From Isoetes taiwanensis (taxonomy: Eukaryota; Streptophyta; Lycopodiopsida; Isoetales; Isoetaceae), in NCBI GenBank assembly GCA_021234155.1, contig JAJEKV010000001.1, positions 25,469,189 to 25,533,188 on the forward strand: DNA of 64,000 nt, given 5' to 3'. This document shows positions 4,065 to 64,000 of the stretch, piece by piece; position 1 is the first letter of the stretch; each line of letters begins with the position of its first letter. Below the pieces are notes generated by a model that saw only the letters and a list, made by a program, of their open reading frames with translations, was not told the origin of the DNA and did no database searches. A program made the position numbers and the translations under genes.

Positions 4065-4079
4065 ACCAGCCCAATTTGA

Positions 4080-23169: not shown

Positions 23170-23233
23170 GTCTTCAGAGAGCTGCATCTGTGTTTGCCCA
23201 CAAAGATGTCCAGTCTACCAATTATGTCTCCAA

Positions 23234-44378: not shown

Positions 44379-45095
44379 GAACACAAAAAACAAGCAAAAG
44401 GAAAACCAAACACAGTGAGACCTCTTCAGCCCAGAACAAGCAAAGGACAGTTGAAGATGTTACTGTTACAGACCTGCAGCATGTATTGACGTTAGAAGAT
44501 ACATCTGGAATAATAAAGGCTCATATAGAACCTCCATGTCCAGAAGAAGATCTTATAGAGGGGTCAAAATGGTATGTCGAGATCTTCAAAACTGGTGGGA
44601 AGACAGACCTTATATTCATGTCTAGGGTAAGAGAGACTGATTAAATGAAAAAGCAGGGAATTCTTATCACATGCGAAGAACAGGATGATTCTTCTTGTTC
44701 AATGTTAGTTGAAGTGGGTCAAAAAAATAAGAAGAGCCTGAAGAAGATCAATCGATGCAGTTCTAGCTCTTTTAAAGAGACTACATTAAGATCAGACGAC
44801 AAGGCCAATTCCCTCTTCAAATTTGGCTGGATAGTTGGCGAGCCATTGACGCCTAAAAGAATATGCGAAGGGCTTTCAGCTGTTCGACGAGCCATCAGCA
44901 CGAGGCCCTCGGACAGTGTCTACCTACAGGCAGTGAAGGATAAGGAAGATGCTAGTTCTAGAGGCAGGGACACTACAGAAGTGACAGCAGGCCGTACAAG
45001 TGATGGTGACAAGGCCAGGCAGTTGGAGGCAATGAGCAAACTGAAAAAATGCTGACAAGTATCCACTGGGCCTGAACTTCACCCATCCAGTCCAC

Positions 45096-45449
45096 GTGGA
45101 TAGGCTTTTCAGGTCCACTAAAGCCATTTATATCAGCAGAAGGTACGACAAGCAGCACTCCTTGGAGATAGCTAGCAGTATGATCGAAAATCCAGGGCAG
45201 GTGCCAATGCCTGCAGATGTAGTGCCTTACGATACGAGAACAAAGAAGGTAATCATGTGGAGCAAGCTGGAGGACTTCATCGAGAACCAAGACGTACATT
45301 TCATGATAATAGATGGCCAGCACTCAATTGAAGCCCAGAAGGTTCTGATTAAGAAGGCCGCGAGAATCTTGGAAATCAGCCGTTCTATAAAAGTCGTATT
45401 CTCGCCGAAGCTACCGGTTCTGGCGGCTCAACAACACCTGCCGAGCTAG
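45096..45449 (+). pseudogene. ParB/sulfiredoxin-like domain of copy 1
   Basis: This frame holds the best preserved part: KAIYISRRYDKQHSLEIASS, then PGQVPMPADVVPYDTRTKKV, then VHFMIIDGQHSIEAQKVLIK. The pattern of a strand, an alternative strand with V-P, then I-I-D-G-Q-H-S/R followed by a helix with alanine is that of ParB-N, sulfiredoxin and DGQHR-type folds, where this loop binds phosphate or nucleotide. Copy 2 shows the equivalent PVPVVVNPFNPLTR and YYIVNGNHSILAAQLVCRK, so the motif is conserved between diverged copies. The arginine of classical ParB (G-x-x-R-R) is not present. Catalytic activity cannot be claimed. Confidence 0.55.
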
Positions 45450-45501: not shown

Positions 45502-46060
45502 GTAACTCTCTTCCCTCATTTTTCGTTTTCATATTTGCAAATCGTGCCAGGCGCGATTTCCTTACTTCAAATCGCGCCAGGTATGATGAAATTTACTGAA
45601 GAAAAGGCTTCCTAGAATGGTAGCCGTTTCTCTTCAAATAAGCAAATCGCGCCTGGCGCGATTTCATATTAGAATGCAAATCATGCCACGCGCGAGTTGT
45701 CTACTCGGAGGAGAAACGGCTCTCTTGAATAATAGTCGTTTCTCCTCAGAGTAGGCAAATCGCGCGTGGCGCGATTTGCATTCTAATATGAAACTGCGCC
45801 AGGCGCGATTTGTTTATTTGAAGAGAAACGGATACCATTCTAGGAAGCCTTTTCACTTCAGAGTAGGTAAATCGCGCCTGGCGCGATTTGCATTCCAATT
45901 TGAAATCGCGCCAGGCGCGATTTGCCTATTTGAGAAGATACAGCTAGCATTCAATGCAACCGTTTCTCTACAGAGTAGAGAAATCGCGCCTGGCACGATT
46001 TCAAACTGAAAGGATTGTTTGAATCCACGATTACTGGAGCTAACAAAGTATTTTTTGCAG
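45502..46060 (+). other. Intron 2 of copy 1 packed with nine family-A palindromes
   Basis: GTAACTCT donor and TTTTTTGCAG acceptor. Palindromes of the AAATCGCGCC-W-mirror form start at about 45539, 45569, 45643, 45677, 45755, 45789, 45869, 45903 and 45981. Several are perfect over 21 bp. Palindromes come in pairs about 34 bp apart and form part of the long inverted repeat at 45598-45859. Confidence 0.85.
45598..45859. repeat. Long inverted repeat (arms about 122 bp, loop 16 bp)
   Basis: Left arm 45598-45719 and right arm 45736-45859 are inverted copies with roughly 90 percent identity by eye. Each arm carries two family-A palindromes. Marker blocks are GGCTTCCTAGAATGGTA, GTTTCTCTTCAAATAA and TATTAGAATGCAAATC in the left arm, each found reversed and complemented in the right arm. 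Transcribed, it would fold into a long hairpin inside intron 2 of copy 1. Confidence 0.9.
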
Positions 46061-48035
46061 TCCCTATATAGAGCAACTGCGGCATGCTCGAAACCAGTGG
46101 ATTGAACATGGGAAGCCAATTCCGATTAGACAAGGCCAGTCCAAAAGCGCTGAATTCAAGTTTCTAGAAAGGACACTTTGTCAGACGATAATACAGGACA
46201 AAACTAAGAGCATCAGATCAAAGAAAAAAAAAGGAGATGAAAAGGGAGATGCTTCCGAAGTTCAAACTGTACCCAAGGATGCCTGCAAAATAATTTTTTC
46301 TTCAGATCAGGTATGGGCGAAATGGAATGAATTCTGGGATGCCTACGTGGAGAAGTTGCCAGATTCACAAGACAGATTTCCTCCTGTTGACACATCAATT
46401 TTGATCTCCATACAACAGAGATGAGGAAGGCCCAGGGATTGGACGATGAAGAACTGATCTCAGTTCTGGACGGGTGCATCAGAAAGGAAATCCTTTAAGA
46501 AAACCTCAGCAACAAAGGACAGGGAATCATTTAAAGAGGCATGCGACCAACTTAAAAATATTAGAGTGCTCAAGAAGGTAGTTGGGGAGGAATTACAAAG
46601 GCTTACAGGGGACTGGTCGTTGTCGGAGCTAGGACTCATGCAAAAGTACAACGTCTCCAACGATGACCTGAAGAAGTATGTCTTTTGGTCCAAAGACTTT
46701 GTCAAGCATCAGAAGTTGAAGAACGTTGCAAACCTTAAAGGGATTCACACGAAAGTTGCATCCGACTTGAAAAGAAAAGTCGCGTTGGTGAAGCAGACCC
46801 CGGAGACGGAATCCACATTCTTTTATCACGTGTCCACTGGTTTCAAGTGTGCATTGCCAGATGTGGGTGCAGGTCCCCATGATATCACACTATTCGTGCT
46901 TGATAGCCGAGGCACCAGATGGTCGCTTGAAGATTATAATACGTTCTACAACATATGCAGTGGTTGCACGACGGAAATGAATTACACAATTGTCACTATA
47001 CATATGCCCCTCCGACATGTCCTATGCATATGCTCTAACTGCTGCAAATGACTTAGAATGCGTCAAAGTCATACGACAGGCGATCCTCATAGATGAAAAC
47101 AGGGACAGTGAATTTAGCACAGTAAGTAAAATTTCTCATGTGCTTATCATTATGATAGCTATGATGGATGATAAGGAATATGAAAGGCTTAAGGGAAAAC
47201 CAGATGGAGATAAACTTGCATGGCAGTGCTATCAGCTAGATGAACGCGTCCTGCGAAACGTCTTTTATCTGGAGCAAGAAGATAAGGGGAAGGGTATCAA
47301 AGACGTGGAACAGCTAGAGGAAGAAGAGGAAGAAGAGGAAGAAAACCAAGCCGACCCCGTTCTTGTGGAGCACATTAAGTATGAGCTTCTAACGTCACAT
47401 AGGGGGAAGCTAAACAAGAACGGGTTCTCTATGGCCCTTTCTCATTATCTCATTGAAGCATTTTGCCCATTGGGGACAACTTGCTAGGAGCTTCACGTTG
47501 GAGGTTACATCGGTAGGGAAGCTTTGAAGTTAGCAAGGAAATGCCAGAGCGTCGTCTCCGATGATCGAGCCAAAAATTTCTTGGATCTCTTCTTTGAGAA
47601 AGTGCTAGAGGAAACACCTAGGGGACCAATCGACAGTGCAAAAAACAAAGCTTCTACCTCTAAGGCCGAAATACCTGCAGATTTGGCTAAAGAACGGGAG
47701 GCTATGAGACAGCTCATGGTTGGCATCAGCATGGATGACAACGAAGAGCAGACAGTGGTCCCGGTACCTGTCGACATGCCTGTGAACATCCTTGACGGTG
47801 AAAATATAGAACAGGAAAAAAATAACAAGGATGATGATAATAACAAGGATGATGATGAAGGAGAGTCCAATTCTGAAAGCTCTAGCCAGGTTAGCTTAAA
47901 GAGTAATGAACTATCAAGCATAGTTCAAACTGTATAGATCTCAACTGATGTGGTTGGTGCTTCTAGCAGACCGGAGACAACTCAGAATAAGGATGCAACG
48001 GAAGAAGACACCACGGGGATTGATGAAGAAGAAAG

Positions 48036-48237
48036 GTATTATGACAATGCTCGTTTTCTTATGATATCCATGCATTTTACAAACGACAAGCATATAGAAA
48101 TCGGGTCTGGCGCGATTTAGAGTTTCCTTGACTTTCATATTTTTAGATTTTGTTGACTTGCATCATTAATGAAATCGCGCCTAGCGCGTTTTCTTGTTCC
48201 ATTTCTTTCATCTCATACGTTATTGTTTGCATTACAG
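48036..48237 (+). other. Intron 3 of copy 1 with two family-A palindromes
   Basis: GTATTATG donor and TTGCATTACAG acceptor. It splits a codon after its second base (AG, then A), joining EEE-R to HDSASPKVLVFDLNGVL. Palindromes at about 48098-48118 and 48171-48191. The homologous intron of copy 3 (63406-63538) has the same position and phase. Confidence 0.75.
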
Positions 48238-48871
48238 ACATGATTCGGCTTCCCCAAAAGTATTGGTCTTCGATTTGAATGGTGTGCTATGTAGAACGTT
48301 ACCTAAAGCAAATTTTGATAAGTCATGGTATGCGCAACAACCATTTGAGACGCGTACCAAATACGTTTACCCCCGCCCTTATCTAAAGGAGATGTTGGAC
48401 CAGGCCTTCAGTCTGTTTCATTGTGCAATTTGGTCATCTATGGAGCATAGAAATATACAGGAAGTTTTGAAAGTAGTGCCTGAGCTAAACAGAGATTGGG
48501 CGTCCATCTGGGATCAAAGCAAATGTGCTTCATTCACAAACCCTAAAGATCCTTCAGGTAAAAAGATATTTGTGAAATGCTTGCGCAACATGATAGATGC
48601 CCTAGGTGTTGAGGAAAAGGAAGGCATGATCATGGTTGATGATGACGCCCTAAAGTGTTGTTTCAATCAGCCACAGTCATTAAATCCGCCATCCTATCAT
48701 CCTGATATGTTCAAGGAAGATGACTTCCTACTTCGTTTTGTCAGTGTCTTGCAAGAAATAGCTTCAGGGAAAATGGTCGAAGAGATACAAACACTATACC
48801 CGCTACTTGATCGGACAGGGGAGATTGACAGGGACCTTGAGAAAATCGTTCTAGAAAGGGAACTCTTTTGA
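48238..48871 (+). pseudogene. FCP1/NIF-type HAD domain of copy 1
   Basis: This last exon is open to its stop. It reads VLVFDLNGVLC (HAD motif I), YVYPRPYLKEMLDQAF, FHCAIWSSMEHRNIQEVLKV (motif II region with S), IWDQSKCASF, PSGKKIFVKCLRN (motif III Lys) and GMIMVDDDALKCCFNQP (motif IV). FCP1-type phosphatases use D-x-D-x-T/V. Here the second Asp is Asn, as in a plant HAD subfamily with D-V/L-N-G-L/V-L. Loss of the acid/base Asp suggests weak or no phosphatase activity, or a binding role. I list it as a pseudogene because the upstream exons are broken, although this exon alone has no defect. Confidence 0.8.
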
Positions 48872-49133
48872 TATATATGTATACCGGAAATACACTTTCC
48901 ATAAAAGTTTTGAATATGAAATATACTTTACACCAAAGCTTTTGAATATATATTGTGTTCTTGTAGCAGCATTATTAGTTCTGTGTACGTATTGTATTAT
49001 TATATTATGTGTATGGTTTGCTATACTTGTAATAATTTGTATGTATATACCGTCAATAATTTAGGTGTGTATAAATAAATATGCATGAAATAGCCAAACC
49101 ATCGGCTTTGGCCTCCGCCTGCTTCTTGTTATT
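48872..49133. other. Copy 1 3' UTR, AT-rich
   Basis: AT-rich with many TATATATT words. No gene. Confidence 0.4.
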
Positions 49134-49355
49134 ATGGCACATTCTATTACCTGCAAGATGAACCATGAGGACCTCTGCAGGTGCCGCCAGCTAGAAATAG
49201 AACTTGAGGACTGGCTGACTGTCGTTGCTATGAATCCCGTCCGCTTCTATCCCGATCCCTTTGATGTTGTAATCCATCTTCTATGGAATCCAGAGCATGG
49301 TTTGTTCATGATTGAGAGGATCTCAGGAGCGCCTGTCGACGATGAATCGGAATAG
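49134..49355 (+). CDS. Small hypothetical protein beside copy 1
   Basis: A 73-residue frame, MAHSITCKMNHEDLCRCRQL, then an ELEDWL segment and HLLWNPEHGLFMIERISGAP, ending in an acidic tail. The amino-acid composition looks coding (C, W, H, D well spread), and it follows the HAD exon by 260 bp on the same strand. A family-A palindrome lies 45 bp after the stop (49400-49420). Function unknown. It could be a second gene of the same element or a chance frame. Confidence 0.35.
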   Translation: MAHSITCKMNHEDLCRCRQLEIELEDWLTVVAMNPVRFYPDPFDVVIHLLWNPEHGLFMIERISGAPVDDESE

Positions 49356-49399
49356 TTTTTGAAGTTTATGTTCTTTGATAATGCTATATTTATGCCAAC

Positions 49400-49420
49400 A
49401 AAATCGCGCCACGCGCGATT
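49400..49420. repeat. Family-A palindrome, last of the copy 1 block
   Basis: AAATCGCGCC, then A, then the mirrored arm with one change. Marks the right limit of the family-A zone. Confidence 0.85.
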
Positions 49421-49714
49421 TGAACCACGAAGATCTCTGTTTTGTGGCAACTTGCTTGCCGTTATTTATTCATAAAGCACTAAAATTCCAATCTATAGAT
49501 TTCGTTGTCGTCCGTGATAGTACGAAATAATAAGCAATTTCCTACTTTTTATATTGCCAACATTCTGTCATAATATGGGTGATTTGCATCGAATATTTGA
49601 ATGCCTTTCCATTTCAACACAAAATACATCTTTCTAGCCCAAAAATGAACTGCAAAAGTGTGGTTAATTCAATATAATGGTCAATAAAAGGCTTATACAC
49701 CGCGATTTTGGAAT

Positions 49715-51159
49715 AGACATAATCCCAATTTAATTGAATGATGGTTTTTACCTTCCAAAAGGCCCCAAAATGGCAAAAATTTGTACAATATGACGCCAGT
49801 TTTGTGGCCATTTTTGTACAATCTGTTCGTTGGGGGACAATTGTTGCTAGGGGTTATATTTTGAAAAGAACGACTCTTCATGGCAAGGATATGAATCCTA
49901 TGAATGTGGAAATAGAAGCATAGTTACAAACGGCCGTATCTGTCGTATGAAACAGAAAATATGGAGATTTAAAAAAATCCATATTAAAAACAAAATACGA
50001 TGAGGGGGAAATACGGGTACCAAATATGCCATTTTTTGTGTTAAATACGCCGTATACATCATTTTTCTTAATGTTTTTGTTAACAGAAAATCAGAGTACA
50101 GTAAAAAACCCACCAAACACGATTTTTCTAGTCCCTCTTCTATTCTCACTAAGTCAGCGACACAAAGCTGAAGCTGTTTGGAATCCAGTTGTTTTAGAAT
50201 CGGTGAGCTTTCTTCTTTCAGCCCCTTTTGATCTTTGGTTGCATTTGTTTATCTTGCTTTTTTCATTTTGCACTGCCTTCTTGACCGGAATGATTTCTAC
50301 TAAAATGATAGGCAAATGGCACTGTGGCGCCATTTAGGTCTTTCACGCTACCTATGGACAATAGCCGACCTACTGAACAATGCTCCAACCTATAAAGATA
50401 ATGCAAACGATAGAGACAATGTCTATGAACCAACCTAAAAGGCAACTCAATATCAAGTAAGTCTATTGCTGTTAATGAATGTGTTGTACAAGTTTTCTTT
50501 CATAATTTGTCTAATGAAGCACTCTGAATTCAGTTCTACTAATGTTGAAAAGAGTACGACACTTAAAATTTCATGATTAATACACACCCTAAAATGAGTA
50601 TCCAGTTTTTCCCCTGGTTGAATCCAAGAAAACCACAAATTTTATGCTGGTAGAGCTAAATTGCGCCATGGCACCATTTGAGAAATAATGGGCTGCCCTT
50701 GTTATGCATACCTGCTCATATTGACACATGTTTATCAATATGATCAAGAAGCACCTCATTCATTGATGTGGTGGTGCCTTTCTACTCTTATTGGGTTATA
50801 TGGCATCGTGTTGCAATTAGAGAATGTTAATGGGGTCCCTTGTTATACATACCTGCTCCTATTAACACATGTTTATCAATATGAGAAAGAATGCATAACA
50901 TAGGCATCTCAAAAATATTCTCCAAAAGAAAATGCTCGTGCCACTTTAAGCACAATCCTCCAAATAGCGCCATGGCGCCATTTGCTTCCGTTCCTGCCTA
51001 AATGGCTAACACGTGCATGTTGGACGTGTCACCTAATGCCATTTTGGATCAAATGGCACCATGGCGCCATTTCGTGGCTGATGTCAACCTGTTGGCGGGG
51101 GAGGTAAATGGCGCCATGGCACCTTTAAACCATCATTCAATTAAATTGGGATTATGTCT
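49715..51159. mobile_element. Candidate 1.4-kb element bounded by 31-bp inverted repeats, with five family-B palindromes
   Basis: 49715-49745 and 51129-51159 are identical 31-bp sequences in inverse orientation. Between them lie five family-B palindromes at about 50314, 50658, 50962, 51051 and 51106, and a repeated block (GCCCTTGTTATGCATACCTG and CCCTTGTTATACATACCTGC near 50694 and 50837). No recognisable gene. The same 31-bp end plus family-B palindromes recurs at 22922-23264. I did not find target-site duplications. Confidence 0.5.
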
Positions 51160-52103
51160 TAATTTTGGGACAAATTTTATATTGCGTGTTTTTAATGATA
51201 TATTCAACTTCTCAAAGTCTTATGTGAAAAGCACAAAAATATAATACCATATTACTTTAAGGATAGACAACATTTCATAATATAGCATAATAGCACGCAA
51301 ATGATAGAAGAAAATGATGAAGAAATTTGAGTACGCCAGTGTTATTGTAGAAATATGCACAAAAATAAAATACACAACCGAGTTTCATAAAGTTGTGGAT
51401 CACCAAATAAAAAAAGGCACTCCATGTTACTTTATATAGAACTAGAACTTTTTTCCTCCACCTTCCACATTCCATCTTTTAGAACTACAATGTTTCTCCT
51501 CCACCTTTTGACCTACAAATCCTAATGTAGATCACTTCTTCACTATCCAAAGAGGAATTCATCCTAGCATATTTCTTCTTGTAAGAATCGTGCCATTACG
51601 ACCAAAGCTACGACACTGAAAACACAAAGGATTAGTCCTTCAAAATTCACATGGCAGAAGTTGGAAATGCAAGAAGATTCACATTTTCGAAGTTGGACTC
51701 ATAATAAGAAGCTGAACATGTAAGAAGATACACATTTTCGAATTGACACTACCCACATGAATTATGCTACCAAAATTGCTTTTGTATTCTAAACCAAGAA
51801 CTTTATGGTACCTAACATCGCGAATAAGCTTAGATATAGTCAATATAGCAAACGTAATGGTGGAATACAAAAGTGTTTAGTTTACCTTGAAAATGCGCTG
51901 AAACAGGTGGGTTTTCTCCAAAATAGGCTTACTTATAAACGCATCCCATCACCTAAAAAATTAGCCAAAAAAGACCAATTTATTAAAAGATCGGCTTAAA
52001 CAGAAGCTAGTTATCTAAAAAAAGTTGGATAAGAGCCAAAAAAGAGAGCACACTTGGCGAGGTTTTTCAAGCCCATTTACATGCTAGAACATGCTAAAAC
52101 TAA
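51160..52103. other. No recognisable gene
   Basis: AT-rich sequence between two mobile elements. No coding pattern seen. Confidence 0.4.
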
Positions 52104-54086
52104 GGGTGTGTTCCCATTAGGCCAAAAAAGGCCGGTAACTGTGCCAGCTGGCAAGTTGCAGGTCTGGTTCGTCCATTCCCGTTACATTCACCGGCACTAA
52201 ATTTTGCTGACATGGCAAGGGCCTGGAGTTCGAGTTCGGATGGATTGCGGAGCTTCTGAATTAACCAAACAGTCCCCTTGCTTTGTCGGGTAGTAGAAAC
52301 ACGTCATCATTCTTGTTAGGATTTGGGATGGCACTCCTCCACGAATTTGGCGCCAATAGAGCATGTATTTGGAGGCAGCAAATTTCTTTAAAGAAGCATT
52401 CGTGGAGGCAGCAAATTTCTTCAAAGCAGCATTCGGGAACCTTTCTTGCTGCTCTTATCATGAGAGGCAACAATCGAAACCTCAGTTTTATTAGGCAAAT
52501 GCATGGTTTCAGGTCTTTCTCTGTAAACCAGGTAAGATTTGTATTCTAGGTTATGCTTCCTTCTTATATTTTGAGTTGCTTGATGTATCTTAGAGCTTGA
52601 AGTAGAATAGACAAAGCTAGTGGAAGAGAAATAGAAGTCTGGTATATTTTTATATAAATCCTGATGTAGCAAAAAATTGATATTTGGCTAAAGAAGATGG
52701 ATGGATTGCACATATGGATTGAGACCTTTGTAATAATTTGTAAAGAGAATTTATAATTTGGATGGATTGTGGCAGTTTGATTGCGACAGTTGTAATGATT
52801 TTTTAACTACTTACGTTTACAGGGATCCTTTACTAAGCTGTTACATGATTGTGAAGAGGATGTTGTGTTAGAAACTCAAGGCTTGGATACATAAACTCAT
52901 GGGCAACCTGGTACACAGGATGCAATATCCTTGCCTCAGGCGCAGCGTGCTCCTCAAGTCATGGAACCAAGGCATTATGCCACGACGCATTGGACAGCAC
53001 ATGAACTGATGGTGCTTCAAGCTGCAAAGAAGGAAGATGAGGAGAGACGCTTATTTGGTGGCACAAGAGAGAAACACAAACGAAAAGATGTGAGATGGTC
53101 AGAAATAGAGGACTTTTGTTGGCAGCATGATGTGCGGAGGTCTGCCAAGGCATGTTTAGCAAGGTGGGAGACATTGACACAGGATTTCAAAAAAATTCAT
53201 GATTACATGAAGGAGATTCCAAGTGGACGTGATGGCTACTGGCAGATGACCTCTTCTGAGCGTAAGGATGTCCTCTAAGTTTCTTTTCAGATGTATATGA
53301 AGCCATAGATTGCTGGTATAGCAAGAAGACCGCTGTCAATCCTACTGGATTGGTGACTGAGTCTTCTATTCCTGCTTCATTTTCTACTCCATTATCACAA
53401 CCAGGTTTGTAGATGTTATTATGCATTTTACTTTCCATGTTCCCTTACTTGAATAGTAACTTTTGTGCATGACCTGCAGAGGTTGCACAGGAAGTCGAAG
53501 ATGAGCAAGACAGTCCAGATAGTCCAGATGGTGCTGACATACAGAGTGACAGTACATAATCCTCAAAATGGTACCACCAATGTGTTGATCATGGCCTTAT
53601 ATACCGATGACCATAACTAATTCCTGTCAAGGTTCCTCTGGGCAATGTAACATCAGAGTTAAGCATTGAAAACAATAAAATTCTGGACACGGTATGAGCT
53701 TGGTTTCTTTCAAGGCATGTGGCTTGATGAATATCTGTCTCATCATCTTCTAAAATGGCATTCACTCTTTCTAAATTATCCAGTGCAATTGTCAAAGCTT
53801 GCATAAGAACCATAAGAAGAAGAACCTGTTGTTGATCCATTGGAACAGTATGAGGAGGATCTTACTTGTAAAACGTTTCATGAATTGTTGCAGAGCGCTA
53901 TCAGATGAACAGAGACGTTTTTCCTTCGATTTCGATGGAGATGCTTCCCGTAGAACAATTCTGGGAGGCGATGACGTGGAGACGGTCTAATGGGAATGGA
54001 ACATTGGAAAACCGGTAAAAGGGACCAGCAAATATCTGACGTGGCAAACTCAGAAATACAGGTCGGGTAGTAATGGGAATGCACCC
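52104..54086. mobile_element. PIF/Harbinger-type DNA transposon, 1983 bp
   Basis: The ends are GGGTGTGTTCCCATTA at 52104 and its inverse GGGTGCATTCCCATTA ending at 54086, differing at two positions. Both ends are flanked by TAA (52101-52103 and 54087-54089), matching the 3-bp TWA target duplication of PIF/Harbinger elements. Subterminal GACATGGCAA/GACGTGGCAA boxes are also inverted. Inside lies a Myb/SANT-like gene, but no DDE transposase, so it would depend on a partner for transposition. Confidence 0.8.
52283..53560 (+). pseudogene. Myb/SANT (trihelix-like) protein of the Harbinger element
   Basis: A possible first exon (52283-52529) ends before GTAAG, and a TTTACAG acceptor at 52823 starts the main exon. 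This exon has an in-frame TAA near 52890, then the domain HWTAHELMVLQAAKKEDEER ... DVRWSEIEDFCWQHDVRRSA ... CLARWETLTQDFKKIHDYMK ... GYWQMTSSERKD. Three tryptophan-centred helices and a following F-x-x-x-V-Y-x-A-I-D-x-W segment (53285-53310, in a shifted frame) are typical of Myb/SANT-like trihelix proteins. A further intron (donor near 53404, acceptor near 53479) leads to an acidic end, EVAQEVEDEQDSPDSPDGAD. Harbinger elements normally encode such a DNA-binding protein alongside the transposase. The internal stop and frameshift indicate decay. Confidence 0.7.
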
Positions 54087-54089
54087 TAA

Positions 54090-55741
54090 AAGCAGAATAT
54101 AACAAACTTGCTTGCTCGTATTGCTCGTATGTAGAAGAAACGAAGATAAAGAAACAAGGAGAAACTTTGTTGCTATGAATCAGCTAATTAGATGCCCCAA
54201 ACTCATTCCTGACACATACATACCTTAGAAAATGAGCAAAGAAAACCTTCTAATCGGCTATTGCAACCTCAGCACGAAGAACAAGCTTTGAAGAAGAAGA
54301 AAAAAAGGAAGAAGAAGCAATCTCGGCAAGAAGAATAGATTTCTGGCACCATGGCAAGTGGAAAAGGAGTTGCTTAGGCCATTAGAAATGCTGATCAGAG
54401 TGTCCGGCACCGCATCCTTGCTGTAAAATGATGCTCCTGATCATGCTGGAGATATAAAAAATACAGTTAGATTCCCAATATCAGAGAACAACCATGTTGA
54501 ATTTATGTACACCATACCATGTATGGCTTACAATATGCTTTATATCCAAGAAAAGAAAGGGCGAAGCAAAACAAAATTTGGACAAATTTGTAGCCCATAA
54601 AAACCACAGGTTGTTCATGAAAAATTGGTCTATATAATCCATTTCAATATTGCGCATGGTTTGAAGAACCGTTTGAAGACACCCATGTTGGTTCTTCTTA
54701 CATATTTTTGCAAAAATAAGTGCAGAAAGAAGAACACAATGTGCACTTTTGCTAGAATACTCATTCATAGAAGACATAACATAACCCGACTATACTACAT
54801 GAAATACCTTGGTTTGCCCGGTTGAATTATTCTTATACACATCTTTCTGGATTGACCATTCCAAAAACTCCTTTGCCATCCTGGTGGATTCAAATCAATG
54901 GCTTTTAGAACGGGATTTTGTATCCTTGATCCAACATTAGTTGGCAATTTCGCAAATGGCTGTGCAATATACAGATCTTATTTCATCATCAAAACTGACA
55001 GAACCTTCTTCTCTTCCTCCGCCGCCAACTTGCTGCAATGATCATCTGAATTAACAAAATACTACAAGACAATAAGAACTAACGTGGGAATCTGCTTCGG
55101 CATGGCAAACAGTAAAAAACATTCTGCAATAAACATATTCTAACAAAAAAACTGCCACATGGCAAGGCGCCATGGGCTTATACAGCTAATGTAATTTAAG
55201 TTGCTTTTAGATAGAGCTCAGAGCTTTGTGAGGGTCAGCTTTTGCCAAGCTGGGTGGCGAATACCCAGAAACAACCAATATTTGGCTTTATTCGCTCTAG
55301 TCAACTCCTTTGTGAAGCCAATATTTGGATCCATTCGCTCTAGTCAACCAATATGCAGTTCATTTCTTATATCACTAGGCGGCCAACTACATGCAAGCAT
55401 TAACTTAGCCAACTTAAAGCAGGCTTTCTGGCTCATATTCAGGCGTTCTTTGAATCTGAACTGGGCGGTACCAGATTCTTAAGATTTCCTTTCAAACTGG
55501 AGGTTTCCAGGCATCTCATGTGCTTGAAAGCAAAGCAACCGTTTGCTAATAGTAATGGAAACCTGTGCTTAAAAAAAAAAGCGCAGAGCCTTTTTGCCGA
55601 CAATTTTCAGAACTTACAGATTTCGGTGAAAACGTAGAAAGTGTCAAAGAGCGGCTTCGGCAAACGTGGTGCCGCCTTCGAGAGGAAGAATGGTCCGTCC
55701 ATTACACGAGAGAATGGCGGGCACTCAAGTAGCCTATTAAG
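54090..55741. other. No recognisable gene
   Basis: Non-coding DNA upstream of the dirigent gene. A short box CGCTCTAGTCAAC with ATATTTGG recurs three times near 55275-55355. A weak family-B-like GGCAAGGCGCCATGG lies near 55160. Confidence 0.4.
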
Positions 55742-55749
55742 TATAAAAG
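55742..55749 (+). promoter_or_regulatory. TATA box of the dirigent gene
   Basis: TATAAAAG 70 bp upstream of the ATG at 55819. This fits a transcription start about 45 bp before the ATG. Confidence 0.65.
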
Positions 55750-55818
55750 AAGTTTTTGCCCCAACCAAACAAAGTACCCATATATCCTAAACAAGCACAA
55801 TAGCCCATCAAGCAAAAA

Positions 55819-56313
55819 ATGCGCGCCCTTGTCTTTGTGCTCTTGTGTTCTTTCACACTCGCCATCCCAGCCACTAGAGTTTCCAACATAGCATTCTTCA
55901 TCCATGCCAAAGTTAGCAAGCCCAATGCTACCGCGGTCATTGTTGCTGGCCCAAATGGTGACACCACTAGCCTCGCTTTTGGCTCCGTTTATGTTGTTGA
56001 TGATGTGATTACAGCTGCACAATCCAATACCTCTGCCATAATTGGCAGAGCCAAAGGTATGGTGATGGCTACTGAGGAAAATCTCCAATATGCTACCTAT
56101 GTCTTCTCTGTTGTCCTTCAGAATGAAAAGTATAATGGTACCATAGCTTATCAAGGCACTGACCGTGTTGTTAAGGGTGTCAGTGAATTGGCTGTTGTTG
56201 GAGGCACTGGAGATTTCCGTCTAGTCACTGGCTATGCTAGTATCATTCATGTTGAGCTTAACCTGCCAGATTCTACCATTCTGATCAATTCTACCTTGTA
56301 TCACAAAATATGA
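55819..56313 (+). CDS. Dirigent protein
   Basis: Dirigent proteins are small extracellular beta-barrel proteins that guide stereoselective coupling of phenoxy radicals, mainly in lignan formation and defence. This one has 164 residues. The N-terminus (MRALVFVLLCSFTLAIPATR) is a typical signal peptide. The family motifs are clear: TAVIVAGPNGDTT (about 38-50), FGSVYVVDD (54-62, with the conserved D-D), IIGRAKGMVMATEENLQYAT (74-93), YNGTIAYQGTD and VSELAVVGGTGDFRLVTGYA (121-140). Four N-glycosylation sites are visible (N36, N70, N106, N157). A single exon, the usual state for dirigent genes. The ATG is the first after a TATA box at 55742. No defects, so it is probably functional. It is shorter than most (180-190 residues), mainly in the segment after the signal peptide. 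Confidence 0.95.
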   Translation: MRALVFVLLCSFTLAIPATRVSNIAFFIHAKVSKPNATAVIVAGPNGDTTSLAFGSVYVVDDVITAAQSNTSAIIGRAKGMVMATEENLQYATYVFSVVLQNEKYNGTIAYQGTDRVVKGVSELAVVGGTGDFRLVTGYASIIHVELNLPDSTILINSTLYHKI

Positions 56314-56359
56314 GTTAGAATATCTAAATCTCTAATTCGCTATATATGTCAAACATTAA

Positions 56360-56365
56360 AATAAA
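56360..56365 (+). terminator. Polyadenylation signal of the dirigent gene
   Basis: AATAAA 47 bp after the stop codon. Confidence 0.5.
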
Positions 56366-57047
56366 ATTGTTCCATCCTATGAATATCTCCTAAAATACAT
56401 TGCAAACCTAGACTTTGGAATGTTGTTTTGATTTAGCTTATCACATCCTAATTTAAGAAAAAAATATTAACCAAAAAGTTGTAGAGCATTCTAGAGGAAA
56501 CTCATTCATATGGTGGTGACATCCACTAGCAATACAAGTGAATACCCAGCATAACTAGTAGTAGGGCAAGCTTGGGACAAAGTTTTCTTTCTTTCTTTCT
56601 TTCTTTCCATGTTTTATAGATAAACCTGTGTATTGTAGATTGTTTATGTATCCATCTTAAAACTGTGGTTTTTTGTCATAAGTCTTTTTAAATTTCCAGA
56701 ACATTGTTCCAATAAAGCATCCAACTTAAATCAACATGTTAAGATTTTGAGATCTTGCAGTATATGGTAGTGATGGATTCACAATTAAACGATAGGCAAA
56801 TTTATCAAGAGCATAAAGAGACGGATCTATCAAAGCAAGGTTCGACAGCCAAAAATGGCCGCTTCCAAATTTGGTTCAACAAAAGCACTTGCCGGATTAC
56901 TATTCCGCACAAGTCAATTGCGGCCGCCTCTTTTTCACCATTATACAATGATAAAATAGAAGGCTACATGCATGCATGTGATCATTGCACAACAAGTTCT
57001 AATGTACAATATATACAACAAATAATAGGATATGATATGAATTATCA
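56366..57047. other. Intergenic, no gene
   Basis: Contains only a TTTC microsatellite (56585-56608) and AT-rich sequence. The frame at 56755-57207 has no recognisable domain and partly overlaps the copia remnant. Confidence 0.4.
56585..56608. repeat. TTTC microsatellite
   Basis: About six copies of CTTT in a row. Confidence 0.9.
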
Positions 57048-58340
57048 TCATCCCCCTTTCATATCATATTTTGTACAAGACAACGATTTCCTCAACTGCA
57101 CTAACCTTTTTTCTGAGAAAGCTTTGGTTAGGAGATCTGCCAGCGAATGTTCTGTGCTAACATATTTCAACTGTATAAGATTTCTGTTCACAAGATCCTT
57201 GATATAATGCATATGAATTTCGATATGCTTAGACCTCTCATCCAAGACCAAATTTTTGCACATAGCGATGCAACTAAAGTTATCAAAATTAAGAACAAGG
57301 GGATGATCCATGGCTATGCCAAGTTCTTCTAATAGCCTTTTGCACCAAACCATTCCTTTTGCAGATAAAGTGGCTGCTGCATATTCGACTTCTGTTGTAG
57401 ACAAGGCAACTGAGGTTTGCTTCTTGCATTTCCATGAGATATGTGCTCCAGCAAGCATCATAATAAACCCTGATGTTGACTTTCTGCAATCTAAATCACC
57501 TGCCCAGTCAGAATCACAAAATGTTTTTAGTTCAAGGTCCTCTGAACAAAATAATATACCAACATGCTTTGTTCTCTGTAAATATCTGACAATCCGCTCA
57601 GCTGTTGCCTAATAAGCTTTACCTGGATTGTTGTTATATCTGATAAGCGTATTAACAGTAAATGCCACATCTAGTCTTGTGCAATTTGCCAAGTATATCA
57701 AGCAACCAACCAGTTCTCTCTATGGAACACATTCCATTTCTTTTATCGGTTCCTATAACTCTCCTGATATCTTCTGAAGTGGAGTATTGATGGCTTTGAA
57801 ATTGGCCATGTTAAACCTTTTTAGTATAGCATCAACGTATCTACCTTGAGGCAAGAAGAGCTTCTTGTTCTTCTTGTCTCTTTTTACTTCAATCCCAAGG
57901 CATCTTTGTAGCTCCCCCAGATCAATCATTCGAAACCTGCTTCTGAGAATATTTTTATACTTATCAAGTATGGTTAAACCTGTTAAAACCGTCACACAGT
58001 CATCAACATAAAGTGCAATAATACAATATTCCTTTCCTTGTCTGTATACATACAGGTTCCCATCACAATTAAGTTTAATAAAGCCTTGCTTTCTAAAATA
58101 AAAGTCCATATGGAAATACCATTGTCTAAGAGCTTGCTTTAGGCCGTATACTGCTCTCTTTAATTTCCACGCCTTGTTCTTCTCACTCTCAAAGCCTGGA
58201 GCTTCTTTCATGTAAATTTTTTCTTCTAATTTAGCATTGAAAAAAGCAGTAACATCCATGTGATGGATTTCTAAATTTTGTGCATTTGCTAATGCTAGTA
58301 AAATTCTAATACTATCATTTTGACTATAAGACGAGCCTAG
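57048..58340 (-). mobile_element. Truncated Ty1/copia element, RT and RNase H only
   Basis: On the minus strand the frame 58259-57753 is a copia RT: MDVTAFFNAKLEEKIYMKEA, then WKLKRAVYGLKQALRQWYFH and IIALYVDDCVTVLTG with the Y-V-D-D box. After a damaged stretch, 57461-57048 is the RNase H: SVALSTTEVEYAAATLSAKG, HIEIHMHYIKDLV and EHSLADLLTKAF. Reading further upstream the RT starts within QNDSIRILLALANAQNLEIH near 58330, where similarity stops abruptly at the start of copy 2. Gag, protease, integrase and the 5' part of RT are missing. Confidence 0.9.
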
Positions 58341-58343
58341 TGT

Positions 58344-61219
58344 ATGAAGATAATGAGGGTGAGCACTTCTTCTCGTTCGAGTTCAAAGGGTGATACTAGG
58401 AGAGAGGTCTATTTAGTGACAAAGGAGATGTCCGACAAAACAGAAGGAGTTTACCAGTCGGGCATCATCGTTAACATGAGAGCAACTCTCAATAGCGGGC
58501 GGGATGAGAATACAGAAGAAATGAAGCCAAACATATACTATATGGACTGGCGGTTCTATGATCCTACAATGAAGTCCGCGAGTATTTCGAATATCAGTAG
58601 CTCCTCCAAGAGACAGGGATGGGCTCTTTCCTCTTAAGAGCTTCGAAGAGGCAGACATAAAAGGCCCAGCTAAAATTTTAAGGGACTACAACATTCTTCA
58701 GATTCGAATGAACGAGTCTAAGAATTCTCCTTTTTAGTTGTCAAGGCCTTGAACTCGCAAAATGCTCCTCACTTCGTGTACACCAATTGGCTTCGAGCTC
58801 AGAGAAAGGGTAAGCCTCGTGCTGTCAAGGAGGCTATTGCAACTGAGAAGGAATCCTCTTCTGATACGGAAGAAGAGGTTAAAAAATCAGAAGCAAAAGT
58901 AGCAGAGAAACATCAAAAGGAAAAGAAGGACGAGGGGAAGGGAAGCAAGAAGGAAAGAAAAGGAAAGGGAGCAAGAAATCGAGCAAGAAGAAGAAGAAAG
59001 GAAGAGAAGGGATGGAAGGCAGTGTAAGGAAGGGGACGGAAGAGAAAGGAGAGGGAAAAAAAGAGAAAACAAAGAGGCGAAAAACATAGACCTGGCACAT
59101 CTGATGTCGAGGGCACTCCAAAGAAACAATGAAGACGAAGCCCTCGACCAAGTCCTATGCCTAGTCCTCCTGAAATTTCGGTGCCCTCTCCATAGCACGA
59201 GGAGTCCATTAGCAGTGGTCGTGGTGGTGGTGGTGCTTCGCATGCCATTGCAAGCACTGGAGAGAGGGATGGTACCTCGACGCCACAACTCCAGATATTT
59301 GCGCCATCCCAATTGATAAAATGGAGGATAGCCCATCACTTGTTAGAGGTGCCCCAAGGCCTCAAGGTCGAAAGGTCCGAGGAGAAAAAGATGGCCGAAA
59401 CTACTTTGAACAAGATATATGACCATCGTCATCTTTTTCCTCTTGGAATTACCTTCACCGAAAAAATTAATGTGTTCAATTTATACCAGGGCCCTCCAAA
59501 TTTGACTTCAAGGCCAAAAAATATGAAACACGTTAAGACTTTGCTAGAATCTTTCCAGAATGGCCCTCACCCAGTTCCAGTTGTTGTGAACCCATTCAAC
59601 CCCCTCACTAGGAATCTGGTTCCTTAGAAAACCTAAGACGATCTAATGGGGTTGCACTACTATATAGTGAATGGTAATCACTCGATACTTGCAGCGCAGT
59701 TGGTTTGCAGAAAACTAGGCACCACAAAGTCTCAAGAGCTGATGTCTAAAATCTATGCCGAGATGCCGGGTGTTGTCTAGAGATGTGAATGAGCAAGACT
59801 GCCTATAGCCCAGTTGTGAGGTGATTGGCGTTGCGGCAAAGACTATCTTCAAGGAGTCTTTCATGGACAAAATCACCCACCAGAGGCACCAGTACGCACT
59901 TTGTGGCAAGTCCGATCCATCTGATAGTGGGCAGACTCGATCGAAACCTTACAAGATATGTTTTTTATATCAAATGACGTCGCGGCGTCATTTCATATCA
60001 AATGGTGTTGGGGCGCCATTTCAGGTTGAGTAGGCTTGATTGTAGGTTAGGATTATGACGTTATACTCTTGAACTGTCGCGCGCCATTTGAAGTTTCCTA
60101 GGCTTCACATAATGAATTTTATGTTTTACCTTCGAAATGGGGTCACAGTGCCATTCGGATTCCATTACTAACACATGTCTTCTACATTCAGTGGTATCTG
60201 GCTCTGGCAGAAGTTACCATGCATGGTAACCAACCCAAAGACTTCAACTGGTGGGTCTTCATGCCAGAGGATATCTTTCAGCTGTTCCAATCTCTTTGAA
60301 GCTAATGAAAAACTGGCAAGCTGAAAGACAACAGAGACCAGACGATAGTATGTAATTGGGCCAAGGATAGTGACTACTTCTGTCAGACTTATCTGAGGTG
60401 CCTCAGAGGCATGCACTATGCGGACTGTAGGGTCTTATTCCAAGAAGTGCTTGACGAGAAGATATATGTAAAGATCTCTGGTGATTACACAGGTGATCAC
60501 TTCTTCAAGACGAGGGCTAAAACTCTTAAGACATTAGCATTCTTGAAGAAAGAAATATTTGAATATGTCAAGGATATTTGAATATGTCAAGGAGGAAGTT
60601 TACCTCCTTCGAAGACTTCTGTTCCTATGTGCCAGACTTTGACGGTGATAGCTTGAAGGGCATAGGGGCACTGCATAACAAATGGAACAATGATGGCATT
60701 TCCAGGGAGAGAATTTTTGGAAATATACCTTCAGCCTTGGCAAGGGTCATAAGAAATAAAGTTATGCAAAGGGATGACACTGAAGACTTCTGCTACGAGG
60801 TTGAGCTCACTGATAGGAGAGGCCAGATCAAATGCACTCCTATGCCAGCCTCTTTGATTGTTCTAGATACGAGAAGTCTAACTCCAATGTGGGACCAACT
60901 GACACTATCCAAGGTCTTTGACATTGCTGTCAAGAACACCACTATTGAATCTTTCTGGATAGTTTATTTTGCATGCCTAGAACACAATTTTGTTATCTCC
61001 TCAGTATTGGATAACCTGGACTCTAGGTCCATAGTATATATTGGCATGTATGAGGATGAATACAAGAATGCGGCACCAACAGGGGTGTTTGAACCGCATG
61101 CACTCGTCTATGCAACGAAGATCCTGTCTTCTGCCCTAACTGTTGTCGAAGAATTTGACTTGAGGTTTTCCTATGCCGATCACCCAGAGGAGATCCTGCT
61201 CACAACGAAGAAGAGGTAG
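58344..61219 (+). pseudogene. Copy 2: ParB-like gene-family member, decayed, HAD domain missing
   Basis: Frames in order: 58344-58637; a charged Lys/Glu-rich part at 58749-59027; the ParB-like region from 59313 (HLFPLGITFTEKINVFNLYQ, then PHPVPVVVNPFNPLTR) continuing past a stop to YYIVNGNHSILAAQLVCRK near 59675-59730; then FMDKITHQRHQYALCGKSDP (59860-59950), corresponding to the exon 2/3 junction of copy 1; and the middle domain at 60578-61219 (FTSFEDFCSYVPDFDGDSLK, SLIVLDTRSLTPMWDQLTLS). Order and motifs match copy 1 (PLGLNFT against PLGITFT; IIDGQHSIEAQ against IVNGNHSILAA; FVLDSRG against IVLDTRS). An intron of about 230 bp (roughly 59958-60190) holds family-B palindromes. Many stops and shifts. 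The 3' part with acidic linker and HAD domain is absent. Confidence 0.6.
59972..60156. repeat. Four degenerate family-B palindromes in the copy 2 intron
   Basis: At 59972-59993 (AAATGACGTCG mirrored), 60000-60021, about 60076-60090 (half site) and 60135-60156. Degenerate relative to those at 50-51 kb. They lie where copy 1 has its palindrome-packed intron 2. The acceptor CTACATTCAG at about 60190 is good, while the donor is unclear. Confidence 0.7.
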
Positions 61220-61533
61220 ATGGGGAGACTGAGGCTATGACTAAAAAATTCTTTCATATAAGTCGTATTTAATTAAAGTGGGACTCATTCCATTCCCACT
61301 TTTTTTTCGGAACCCTGTTAATTTACACGAAAAGGAGCACCCTGACCCGAAAACTATCCTTAATTCGAATTTTTGTTGTTATTGTGCATCCAAGCTTTCT
61401 TCCAGTTTTCCTTGGATAGCGAGTCGAGAACAAGAACAATGCAACTAAAACAAAGGAAATTCATTAAAGATTGAAACCAAAGCTCTAGTTGAAAAAGAAT
61501 TTTTATTAATAAATTGAATAGGTACAATGTATT
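61220..61533. other. No recognisable gene
   Basis: Short AT-rich spacer between copy 2 (plus strand) and copy 3 (minus strand). Head-to-head 3' ends. Confidence 0.4.
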
Positions 61534-62051
61534 TTACATCGGACGCAGAGACCATGGCGGTCTTGCTGTCACTACAGTTACATCATCGTGGTAGGTGGTC
61601 CACCTTAGGGGATTAACTTGCGGCGCTTCTTCACGCCGACTGTAAGCCTTGGGGGCAACCTGAAGAGTGTGGAATGCCTCACGTGGAGGTGCCTCTGGAG
61701 CCACCGGCTGACCTGTCCACCCGACTTCTCCACTCTCCTCCCGCAGCTTTTCATCGAATATGCTCCTTCCCCAACCTCCGTGGATGTTATGCAATGCTTG
61801 CAAGATGCTTTGAGCTTTCTGGACTGTCTCTAATTTCTTCTCCTCTTCTTTATCCCGAGCGTGTGCATGGCGTCTGCATTCACGAGCAACATTATCCCAA
61901 AGGCCGGGCAAGAGTGTAGTGTGAGCGGGATCTGTGCCAGAACGGTATCTCTTCCGCCTTGAGCGGGATCTGTGCCGCCTGGAGCGGTCTCTGTGATGCC
62001 TGAACGGGATCTTTGCTGGTGTCGGATCTGTGCCTGAACCACCTGGAGCAA
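61534..62051 (-). CDS. RS-rich exon downstream of copy 3, hypothetical
   Basis: On the minus strand a CTTGCTCCAG acceptor near 62051 is followed by an open frame rich in Arg/Ser (HHRDRSRRHRSRSRRKRYRS) and then GLWDNVARECRRHAHARDKE and a Pro-rich end, stopping at 61534. The RS part comes from a DNA repeat of CAGATCCCGCTCA-like words. It might be the last exon of copy 3, spliced over the palindrome-bearing stretch 62060-62560, or a separate gene's exon. I do not recognise the protein. Confidence 0.35.
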
Positions 62052-62149
62052 GGAGAGTCTATGATTAACAATTACGGTGCCATTAGTCAAAACGAAGAAA
62101 AGAATGGTGAAATCAAATTACAATAGAGAACATTCATTCCATATAACGG

Positions 62150-62470
62150 CATCCAATCACGCGAAAAGTAGTCTTTCTCGACTCGCGAGTCGAGAAAGGC
62201 CCGGAAAAGTCAAAGTACAATCATTCCCATTAGAATATGGTTGCATCCAATCACACATGGAAGCATACAAATGGTTGCGTCAATGAGACAAGCAGTGCCT
62301 TTCTTGACTCGCGAGTCGAGAAAGGCCCAGGAAACCCAATGTACAACCATTATCATAATAGATTATGGCTGCATCCAGTCACACAAACAAACATACAAAT
62401 GGTTTCATCAACAGGACAAGCATGTCTTTCTCGACTCGCGAGTCGAGAAAGCCAGCGAAAACTCAATATA
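62150..62470. repeat. Tandem repeat of about 126 bp carrying family-C palindromes
   Basis: Three palindromes at 62173-62198, 62299-62324 and 62426-62451 lie exactly 126-127 bp apart. The sequence between them is also repeated (GGTTGCATCCAATCACACA, then ACATACAAATGGTT and AGACAAGCA). So the palindrome sits in a tandem array of two to three units. The arm reads CTTTCTCGACTCG. The first and third are perfect over 26 bp, the second has one change. Confidence 0.9.
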
Positions 62471-62529
62471 CATGTATATTCATTACAAAACATAGTACAT
62501 TTCTTCACGTTTCTTTACAATATTCACAC

Positions 62530-64000
62530 AATTTGACTATCTGAAAGCGGAGGTCACTCTTCTTGATCACCAAAATATTTGTCGTCCATAGCTTTCATGA
62601 TCGCTACTCTGCTCGGATCGGGTTCCTTGAGGCTCGGATAGTTCGTAATCACATCGGCCACAAGAATGGCAAAGAGGGATTCCGCCAAGACAGGACAAAG
62701 TCCGAAAGACAGCCACTATCCGTCTCATACTCTTCTGGTCGATAAGTCTTAGCAATGATTGTATTTTGCGAGTTATGATAGCACTTGTAGGCGGAGTCAT
62801 CTATGATCAGCGTGTTGTGTTTGCCAAAGTCCGGGAATTGTTCATAAACCCTGTCCAGCCTTTTCACCATAATATGCTTCCCCTTTGTGATGGCTGGATC
62901 GAGGTCTGACACATGCTCGACCCTTTCGCTTCCCCAAACAAACTTGAACTTCAAAACTGGAAGGCCGAGAACACCAAGAACATTGACAATATTTTTCTTT
63001 GCCATACAAGACCATATGGCCACTTCGAATCCCCGTTCCAGGCACCATTTAACAATTTCCTTTGCTCTAGGCCTCGGATACACGATTTTATGCTCCGTTT
63101 TCGTCGGGATCTGCGAGGTGTTAAGCTCAGGGACGTCTTTATCGTGGTATACTGCAGCTAATACTCCATTGACGTCAAATATTACAAGCTTGGTTGGACC
63201 AGCTGGATCCCAGTTGGAGTTTGGCTCTGACCATATTTCCGGTTCATCGGGATCCATATGCGGGATCATTATTTTGTCAGCTCCTTTCTGGCTGCCCGCA
63301 ATGTCTTCTTGCTCTTGATTGTCTTTGGGGAGTGCATTGTCCTCCTCGCGACGTGAACCGCCACTAGATATTGTCAATGATCCGGAGTCGTTGACTTCGA
63401 TCTCCCTGAAATGATGAGAGATGTCAGATAGGAAACGAGTTTTCTCGACTCGCGAGTCGAGAATGGAAAAAAAAGTTAGTCCAGAAAGGTTTCTCGACTC
63501 GCGAGTCGAGAAACACCGAGAGAGCAAAGTGAACTCACCTCAATCTCAGATTCTCAAGAATTTGTTCCGCAGCATTCTGGTCTAAACCTTCGACATTCTC
63601 TTCTCCGTCATGTTTCTCTCCTTCGCTCTCAGGTTTGTCTTCGTCATCATCGTCCTTACTGCTTCCATTTGTCTTCCTCCCTTTGAAATGCTCATGAAGC
63701 AGATCCAGGTATGACTGAATGGTTTCAACCATGTCCTTATTTCCAACCACGGATATAGGTTTCATTCCATAAAGCATAGCCCCCTGAGAGAACAGGCCAT
63801 TCATGTACCACTCGCATACAATTTGATCTTCCTCGACCAAGCTGGTTATGAAGTACTTGATAACTCTTGGCCGGATAGGAATTCTATGTATAGGACCTGT
63901 CGCACCATCATTGCTGACTTTGTCCATCGATGGCACATCCTCCATAAATCTGCCGCCCTTCCAGGGTTCCATCTGCTCTTGAGAAATCATGAACCTGTCG
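62530..64000 (-). pseudogene. Copy 3: ParB-FCP1 gene-family member, 3' half (partial at window end)
   Basis: The gene enters from beyond 64000. Exon A (64000-63539) reads DRFMISQEQMEPWKGGRFME, then IVCEWYMNGLFSQGAMLYGM, MVETIQSYLDLLHEHFKGRK and an acidic D/E-rich stretch. Intron 63406-63538. Exon B (63405 downward) has an acidic linker, then KLVIFDVNGVLAAVYHDKDV, IVYPRPRAKEIVKWCLERGF, EVAIWSCMAKKNIVNVLGVL, a KGKHIMVKRLDRVY Lys segment and NTLIIDDSAYKCYHNSQNT. This is the same FCP1/NIF-type HAD domain as copy 1, with the same D-x-N-G-V-L motif. Near 62700 the frame YETDSGCLSDFVLSW runs into a stop at 62649, while the neighbouring frame continues as LAESLFAILVADVITNYPSL to a stop near 62557, so one frameshift is likely. 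Upstream exons cannot be judged. This may be the least damaged copy. Confidence 0.7.
63406..63538 (-). other. Copy 3 intron with two family-C palindromes
   Basis: Minus-strand donor GTGAGTTC and acceptor CATTTCAG. Phase 2: the codon is split AG then G, joining ENLRL-R to EIEVNDSGS. Two perfect palindromes at 63443-63462 and 63490-63513 (arm TTTCTCGACTCG). They fill about one third of the 133-bp intron. Position and phase equal those of intron 3 in copy 1. Confidence 0.85.

Follow-up and report, generated by a model that had tools for sequence, protein, structure and literature searches.

Lineage-specific palindrome arrays in a dispersed quillwort gene family: putative recognition sites of a ParB/methyltransferase-like protein

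In the VANDAL transposons of Arabidopsis, VANC motifs form arrays in introns and upstream regions (PMC5735166), and in algal transposons (Ectocarpus Sola1-1 and others of green and red algae) ParB-like and N4/N6 methyltransferase (MTase) accessory proteins have been described, which their authors suggest bind and modify the transposon's own sequence (PMC12477816). To these systems we compare a dispersed gene family of the quillwort Isoetes taiwanensis, three copies of which lie in a window of 64,000 nucleotides, the whole stretch of DNA analysed. Copies 1 and 3 represent lineages A and C of this family and copy 2 represents lineage B; the encoded parts are a ParB-like domain, a beta-class methyltransferase-like fold and, in A and C, an FCP1/NIF HAD domain. 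The introns and flanks of these genes carry short palindromes, often in arrays, and we slightly favour the view that these are putative operator-like recognition sites, read by the element's own ParB/MTase-like protein.

As in the VANDAL elements, the quillwort motifs are short, lineage-specific, arrayed in introns and upstream regions of the element and mainly non-coding, and they differ between related elements (PMC5735166). Unlike the VANC21 motif, which is a 9-mer in one orientation, the quillwort sites are two-fold symmetric (PMC5735166), and the text of the VANC paper contains no word formed on 'palindrom' (PMC5735166). The protein is different too, being ParB/MTase-like, and the scanned A, B and C exons gave no Pfam match to the VANC-type DUF1985. 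Binding and demethylation are established for VANC, whereas for the quillwort a counterpart is proposed (PMC5735166); the quillwort arrays resemble, but are not, the VANC route by which some Arabidopsis transposons escape silencing. To the algal accessory proteins, which combine a ParB-like domain with a DNA MTase of the amino-methyltransferase type in a transposon gene, the quillwort proteins are alike by description, with a putative ParB-like domain and a predicted MTase fold of that type in a transposon-like gene (PMC12477816). They differ in coming from a lycophyte, in having the domains on separate exons and, in two lineages, an extra HAD domain, in showing the [DNS]PP[YFW] motif in none of 13 aligned rows, and in their palindrome arrays, which are not mentioned in the passages on the algal proteins (PMC12477816). 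KorB and ParB, with their OB and parS sites, offer a further parallel, since they provide the best fold matches of the ParB-like exon and use a palindromic operator with a short centre (PMC11790492); this fold match is weak, and a serine is conserved in place of the usual arginine. Finally, the predicted fold of the methyltransferase-like part is like that of the DNA N6-adenine methyltransferases CcrM and RsrI, whose catalytic motif was not found in the quillwort rows.

The palindrome of lineage A is AAATCGCGCC-W-GGCGCGATTT, that of lineage B AAATGGCGCC-RY-GGCGCCATTT and that of lineage C TTCTCGACT-CGCG-AGTCGAGAA. The first two are one symmetric position and one centre base apart, and the centre is purine-pyrimidine in 46/46 B sites of modal length. 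In the genome scanned (1,658,258,908 bases in 1110 contigs), exact sites number 613 for A, 1195 for B and 3678 for C, against 0 for each reversed control pattern. Copy candidates at the first pass number 6682 for the C HAD exon and 6385 for the A HAD exon (150 scored in each case), 5531 for the C ParB-like exon (104 scored) and 1444 for the B MTase-like exon (150 scored). From these, 33 A and 45 C HAD loci were picked by hand, each from 150 matches listed, and 14 of 152 B matches and 10 of 109 additional C array introns were fetched. Site type fits lineage in 37/37 A, 14/14 B and 57/57 C fetched loci, which are related to each other, so that these counts stand for lineages and not for independent events. 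The divide between A/B and C is never crossed: A- or B-type sites occur in 0/57 C loci and C-type sites in 0/37 A and 0/14 B loci, and none of the 37 A loci has a G/C-type site. An earlier note on this DNA had assigned the palindromes of copies 1 and 3 to unlike sequence families, each specific to its gene lineage, and both statements are borne out. The random mixing of families within one gene, which it had named as a refuting case, was not seen apart from locus L132, a B gene in which one site is of A type (C/G at position 5 of each half-site) and another is an A/B hybrid.

That note had dealt with the intron preceding the HAD exon, for which the features are the following (palindromes are listed without strand):

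48036..48237, + strand: HAD intron of copy 1 (lineage A), GT..AG, 202 nt, phase 2, read directly
63406..63538, - strand: HAD intron of copy 3 (lineage C), GT..AG, 133 nt, phase 2
48098..48118: degraded A palindrome in the HAD intron of copy 1, 8/10 pairs
48172..48192: degraded A palindrome in the HAD intron of copy 1, 8/10 pairs
63442..63463: C palindrome in the HAD intron of copy 3, 11/11 pairs
63489..63514: C palindrome in the HAD intron of copy 3, 13/13 pairs

Both introns are real in the sense claimed, with GT..AG ends and a codon split after its second base between the acidic stretch and the HAD exon. Their common ancestral position is likely, not proven, because the distance from intron to HAD core differs (about 7 versus about 70 residues). 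Two near-perfect palindromes had been seen in each intron; this holds for copy 3, where both are perfect and 0/3000 shuffled introns matched them, but not for copy 1, where both are degraded and 48/3000 shuffled introns reached two palindromes as good. By themselves the palindromes of copy 1 are not striking evidence. The perfect form of the A palindrome is present in relatives of copy 1, whose HAD intron has at least 40 scored genome copies of 88-100% identity. Over the roughly 220 nt that precede the HAD exon, strict palindromes were counted in 46 C loci (45 fetched plus copy 3) and 34 A loci (33 fetched plus copy 1); they number 0-2 in C and 0-3 in A, with at least one in 44/46 and 29/34 loci, respectively, copy 1 being among the five A loci that have none. 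The equal number in copies 1 and 3, which had been put forward as a shared property, is a coincidence, because relatives range from 0 to 3. In the C intron of L018 there is an apparent deletion between its two palindromes, with one left.

A common consensus, to which both half-sites are held, accounts better for the mirror symmetry itself than do arms that change together. Among sites with at most 2 mismatches per half-site, there are 200 one-arm changes (A 81, B 64, C 55) and 9 matching two-arm changes (A 0, B 4, C 5), where independent arms would give 2.1, 2.0 and 1.0. The idea that the arms change in concert, which the earlier note had advanced together with a check for covariation, was rejected as the main process, since one-arm changes dominate in all three lineages. 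A rerun at 3 mismatches per half-site is noisier, with one-arm and matching two-arm changes of 109/2 in A, 98/13 in B and 500/28 in C, and both arms altered differently in 2, 9 and 34 cases. Similarity between the two arms of a site does not significantly exceed that of shuffled arms (p 1.0 in A, 0.08 in B and 0.18 in C). What is kept is the half-site: in 46 C introns, identity is 0.978 over the 36 half-site positions, 0.896 over the 8 positions of the centre and 0.823 over the remaining 92, and at CpG positions 0.962 in half-sites (8 positions) versus 0.718 elsewhere (only 4). In 99 C and 46 B sites of modal spacing, a sample without the last ten C introns, CpG loss at centre versus half-site is 32/198 versus 11/198 in C (p 0.001) and 38/92 versus 26/92 in B (p 0.09). 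Each half-site is conserved by itself, as for the site of a dimeric protein, and such constraint is characteristic of paired half-sites that a symmetric protein reads. Of the function or copying process that had been invoked for the palindromes, it is the constraint on the half-sites that stands.

Nor are the palindromes confined to the HAD intron; the intron that follows the ParB-like exon holds larger arrays, as do the flanks. In the window these are:

45539..46001: eight A-type palindromes inside long inverted repeats of copy 1, in the intron that follows its ParB-like exon
49401..49421: A palindrome downstream of copy 1
44080..44310: A-type sites of degenerate sequence in what is likely an upstream intron of copy 1 (44238 by search, the remainder by eye or from repeats)
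62173..62451: three C palindromes at a spacing of 126-127, downstream of copy 3
59972..59993: B-type palindrome in the intron following the ParB-like exon of copy 2
50314..51072: four B-type palindromes located by their half-sites, plus a fifth (51101-51126) from the repeat search; no gene was found adjacent to them

In the two elements that were mapped, sites lie in introns and flanks, and exons, with limits set by hand from open reading frames (ORFs), hold 0/23 of them in L006 and 0/12 in copy 1. The largest arrays occupy the next intron after the ParB-like exon, which holds sites in 13/14 B loci, in 10/10 further C loci (3-7 each), in L006, in copy 1 and in L003. As read from ORFs, the position of this intron is shared by A and C and precedes a segment HARNQW or HARQQW; B does not have it, and its array lies in an intron about 34 residues further on, for which reason homology of the array intron across A, B and C was rejected. 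Genome-wide, at least 22 of the 50 B site pairs listed (138 pairs in all) are situated upstream of an MTase-like exon among those listed, at a distance of 440-670 nt, and 0 of the 50 are situated within 2 kb downstream of one. Among B spacings below 200 nt, 16/32 equal 29 nt, and L134 contains a 29-nt tandem array. CCATGG-centred B-type palindromes with a 59-nt period, as at C26:44617-44815, are also found in the genome and apparently form another type of array.

The sites go with the ParB/MTase gene and not with HAD, because lineage B has arrays without HAD (no HAD match within 3.6 kb of each locus, 0/14) and 34/35 other HAD loci, of non-host-type lineages, are without any A-, B- or C-type site, the lone exception being weak. 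Intact relatives with these introns but without palindromes had been named in the earlier note as a refuting case; three of these 35 loci, extended upstream, have no ParB/MTase exon and, in two of them, RING-like ORFs, and we regard them as different genes, to which that case does not apply. The other DxNGVL HAD genes seen, of several lineages (L139-L141, L089 and L091-L124), lack palindromes of types A, B and C except for one weak site, and the upstream ORFs of L139 and L141 have, by eye, a RING-like cysteine pattern.

The gene parts recognized in the window are listed below:

45045..45446, + strand: part of the ParB-like (DGQHS) exon of copy 1, with a broken frame and a weak DndB match
46061..47487, + strand: methyltransferase-like part of copy 1, frame broken, judged by the open homologue L003:6078-7577
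47488..48035, + strand: acidic linker of copy 1
48239..48868, + strand: HAD domain of copy 1 (NIF/FCP1-like, DLNGVL), PF03031 E 7.9e-17
62652..63404, - strand: HAD exon of copy 3, PF03031 E 6.7e-10, at least 150 scored matches
59370..59624, + strand: ParB-like exon part of copy 2 (lineage B), matching 13/14 B loci, e.g., L128
60563..61216, + strand: methyltransferase-like exon of copy 2, fold predicted from the homologue L128

In L006, which is copy 3 in extended form, the exon order is N-terminal, ParB-like (VDGQHSVRAAQ), a further exon, acidic linker and HAD, and lineages A and C share this order at low identity (L003 versus C exons, E 8e-24 and 1e-19); their joining in the HAD tree is unsafe, with long branches and 27/30 picked rows used. 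The usual HAD motif is DxDxT, in place of which this family has DxNGVL. For the model of the B MTase exon (L128), the best fold matches are CcrM (E 1.9e-7), RsrI and HpyAVI, and every one of the 50 listed among the 103 matches with E <= 0.001 is a DNA or RNA amino-methyltransferase; the methyltransferase-like parts of A and B match each other in profile comparison (hhalign E 1.2e-8, L003:6078-7577). The catalytic motif [DNS]PP[YFW] occurs in 0/13 aligned rows, and for one SPPF in a C exon the equivalence of its position to that motif is not established; judging from the sequences, the motif appears to be lost from this fold. For the ParB-like exon, modelled on a C homologue, the top six fold matches are without exception KorB chains (E 0.03-0.09, prob 0.82-0.99), which makes a ParB-like identity of the predicted DGQHS exon suggestive only. 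Searches of the proteins against NCBIfam, PHROGs and PDB sequences returned nothing strong.

How could such sites be used? The view that they are read by the element's own protein starts from the observed lineage specificity, half-site constraint, absence from mapped exons and domain make-up, the latter weakly so for the ParB-like part. Each palindrome would consist of two identical half-sites, recognized by a DNA-binding protein that is symmetric (dimeric) and most likely encoded by the element itself, with its ParB-like domain, helical region, methyltransferase-like fold and, in A and C, HAD phosphatase domain. The gene would gather many such sites in its own introns and flanks, a shift of protein specificity in a lineage would be followed by a shift of the half-site throughout that lineage, and the protein on its arrays would probably govern how its own element is expressed or silenced, in the manner of VANC in VANDAL. 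We infer binding, dimerisation, co-evolution of protein and site and an anti-silencing purpose of the arrays, the last by analogy with the placement of the VANC arrays and with the algal ParB/MTase proposal. A bolder version, possible but in our estimate doubtful, is that of a ParB-parS-like eukaryotic self-recognition system, in which a captured bacterial or phage ParB-methyltransferase would have lost catalysis, would load on arrays in its own introns and spread to keep the element active, protein and half-site being orthogonal in each lineage.

Several observations weigh against a reader encoded by the element. Lineage purity and conservation are in part mere inheritance among related copies, there is a small excess of symmetric changes in B and C, and B-type palindromes at 50.3-51.1 and 22.9-23.1 kb of the window have no ParB/MTase gene found beside them. 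The MTase model is of moderate confidence (predicted local distance difference test, pLDDT, 61.5), its fold matches have a root-mean-square deviation of at least 9 A, and the profile match of the C linker to the B MTase is insignificant (E 0.09, prob 0.6%). The ParB-like model is of low confidence (mean pLDDT 51.6); its KorB matches are above the usual E cut-off and low in TM-score (0.16-0.18 by query), and the sequence matches are weak (DndB E 0.006, phrog_1033 E 0.076). ParB proteins that use cytidine triphosphate (CTP) typically carry an arginine in GxxRxxA, and at this position all three lineages have S. Moreover, other palindromes exist: one family (GCGTACGCGAAAATATTTTCGCGTACGC type) lies in L002 at about 2.9-3.3 kb and upstream of ORF 4253-5944, near a protein kinase ORF (PF07714 E 5e-9) and a RING ORF; another, AAGTGTATTCCGGAATACACTT, lies in L004 at 261-725 and 2968, with no gene identified there; and unlike palindromes occur upstream of 8/35 other HAD loci. 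These cases suggest that palindromes are not confined to ParB/MTase genes. The off-family and gene-less palindromes are either remnants or chance, or other elements with the same trick, and in the latter case the ParB/MTase-like protein would not be the general reader.

Alternatively, the palindromes could be passive satellites, i.e., inverted units spread in non-coding DNA by slippage or unequal exchange and shared within a lineage by descent. The 29-nt tandem period in B, the long inverted repeats in A, the arrays common to C copies by descent and the deletion-like C intron of L018 all agree with such an origin, as does the different position of the B array intron, which implies that arrays need no fixed place. 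Nevertheless, we consider it unlikely, given that C half-sites are better kept than both the remainder of the intron and their own centre, that three lineages with unlike sequences all have two-fold symmetric units, and that mapped exons are free of sites. Quite unlikely, in turn, is a reader other than the ParB/MTase-like protein, be it a host factor or a separate transposase acting on subterminal sites. It would account for the B-type sites away from any ParB/MTase gene found and for the A terminus that is common to another window element at 23232; yet in copy 1 and L006 the densest arrays lie in the gene intron and not at the termini, and the switching of sites by lineage is, in our view, best explained by a reader that the element encodes.

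Perfect arms, the intronic position of many sites and the inverted spacers of the B arrays would suit RNA hairpins, acting in splicing or as double-stranded or small interfering RNA, but the arm test shows no compensatory pattern, gene-strand transitions preserving a G-U pair do not outnumber those that disrupt it (45 versus 53, p 0.48), and sites also lie in upstream and downstream flanks, which leaves this explanation very unlikely. Copying from arm to arm, by quasi-palindrome correction or gene conversion, would hold symmetry without selection. We regard it as highly improbable and disfavour it as the main process on account of the preponderance of one-arm changes; the matching changes do slightly exceed expectation in B and C, with 4 versus 2.0 and 5 versus 1.0 at the stricter threshold and 13 versus 4.4 and 28 versus 22.1 when 3 mismatches are allowed in each half-site. 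Within a site, B flanks show more complementarity than across loci (p 0.0015), but no more than in comparison with other sites of the same locus (p 0.74).

As regards the limits of the elements, two ends were located:

49715..49747, + strand: 3' terminus of the A element, the same end with unlike flanks in copy 1, L001, L002 and L004
61255..61290, - strand: probable 3' terminus of the C element, an end common to the window and L005, of a design like that of the A terminus

The 33-nt terminal sequence closes three stretches of the window, at 23232, 49747 and 51127; a regular-expression search for the 3' tail mixed true ends with chance matches. The stretch ending at 23232 adjoins ORFs of 23469-26422, which resemble a DUF7869 gene by eye only, and the one ORF scanned there (24889-25398) gave no Pfam match. 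A target-site duplication was found at none of three of the four A copies sharing the 3' end, and no transposase was identified in the element; the dispersed copies point to mobility. A DUF7869 gene (PF25273 E 1.9e-48) lies at 5148-7907 of L005, apparently inside a C element; it was rejected as a part of that element and is probably a nested insertion, because another 4.4 kb upstream there is a match to the ParB-like exon. Elsewhere in the window, ORFs at 584-5039, 36751-37670 and 57048-58382 resemble, by eye, fragments of gypsy-, LINE- and copia-type retroelements.

Palindrome arrays in genes of this kind are not described in the literature searched, to which this statement is limited. If the proposed reading is true, they would provide, in a land plant, concrete candidate target sites for proteins of the sort suggested in algae to bind and modify their own transposon, and a palindrome-based strategy parallel to, and independent of, anti-silencing by VANC. 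Lineages A, B and C offer three natural pairs of protein and site which, together with the A/B intermediate L132, lend themselves to the study of how DNA-recognition specificity changes.

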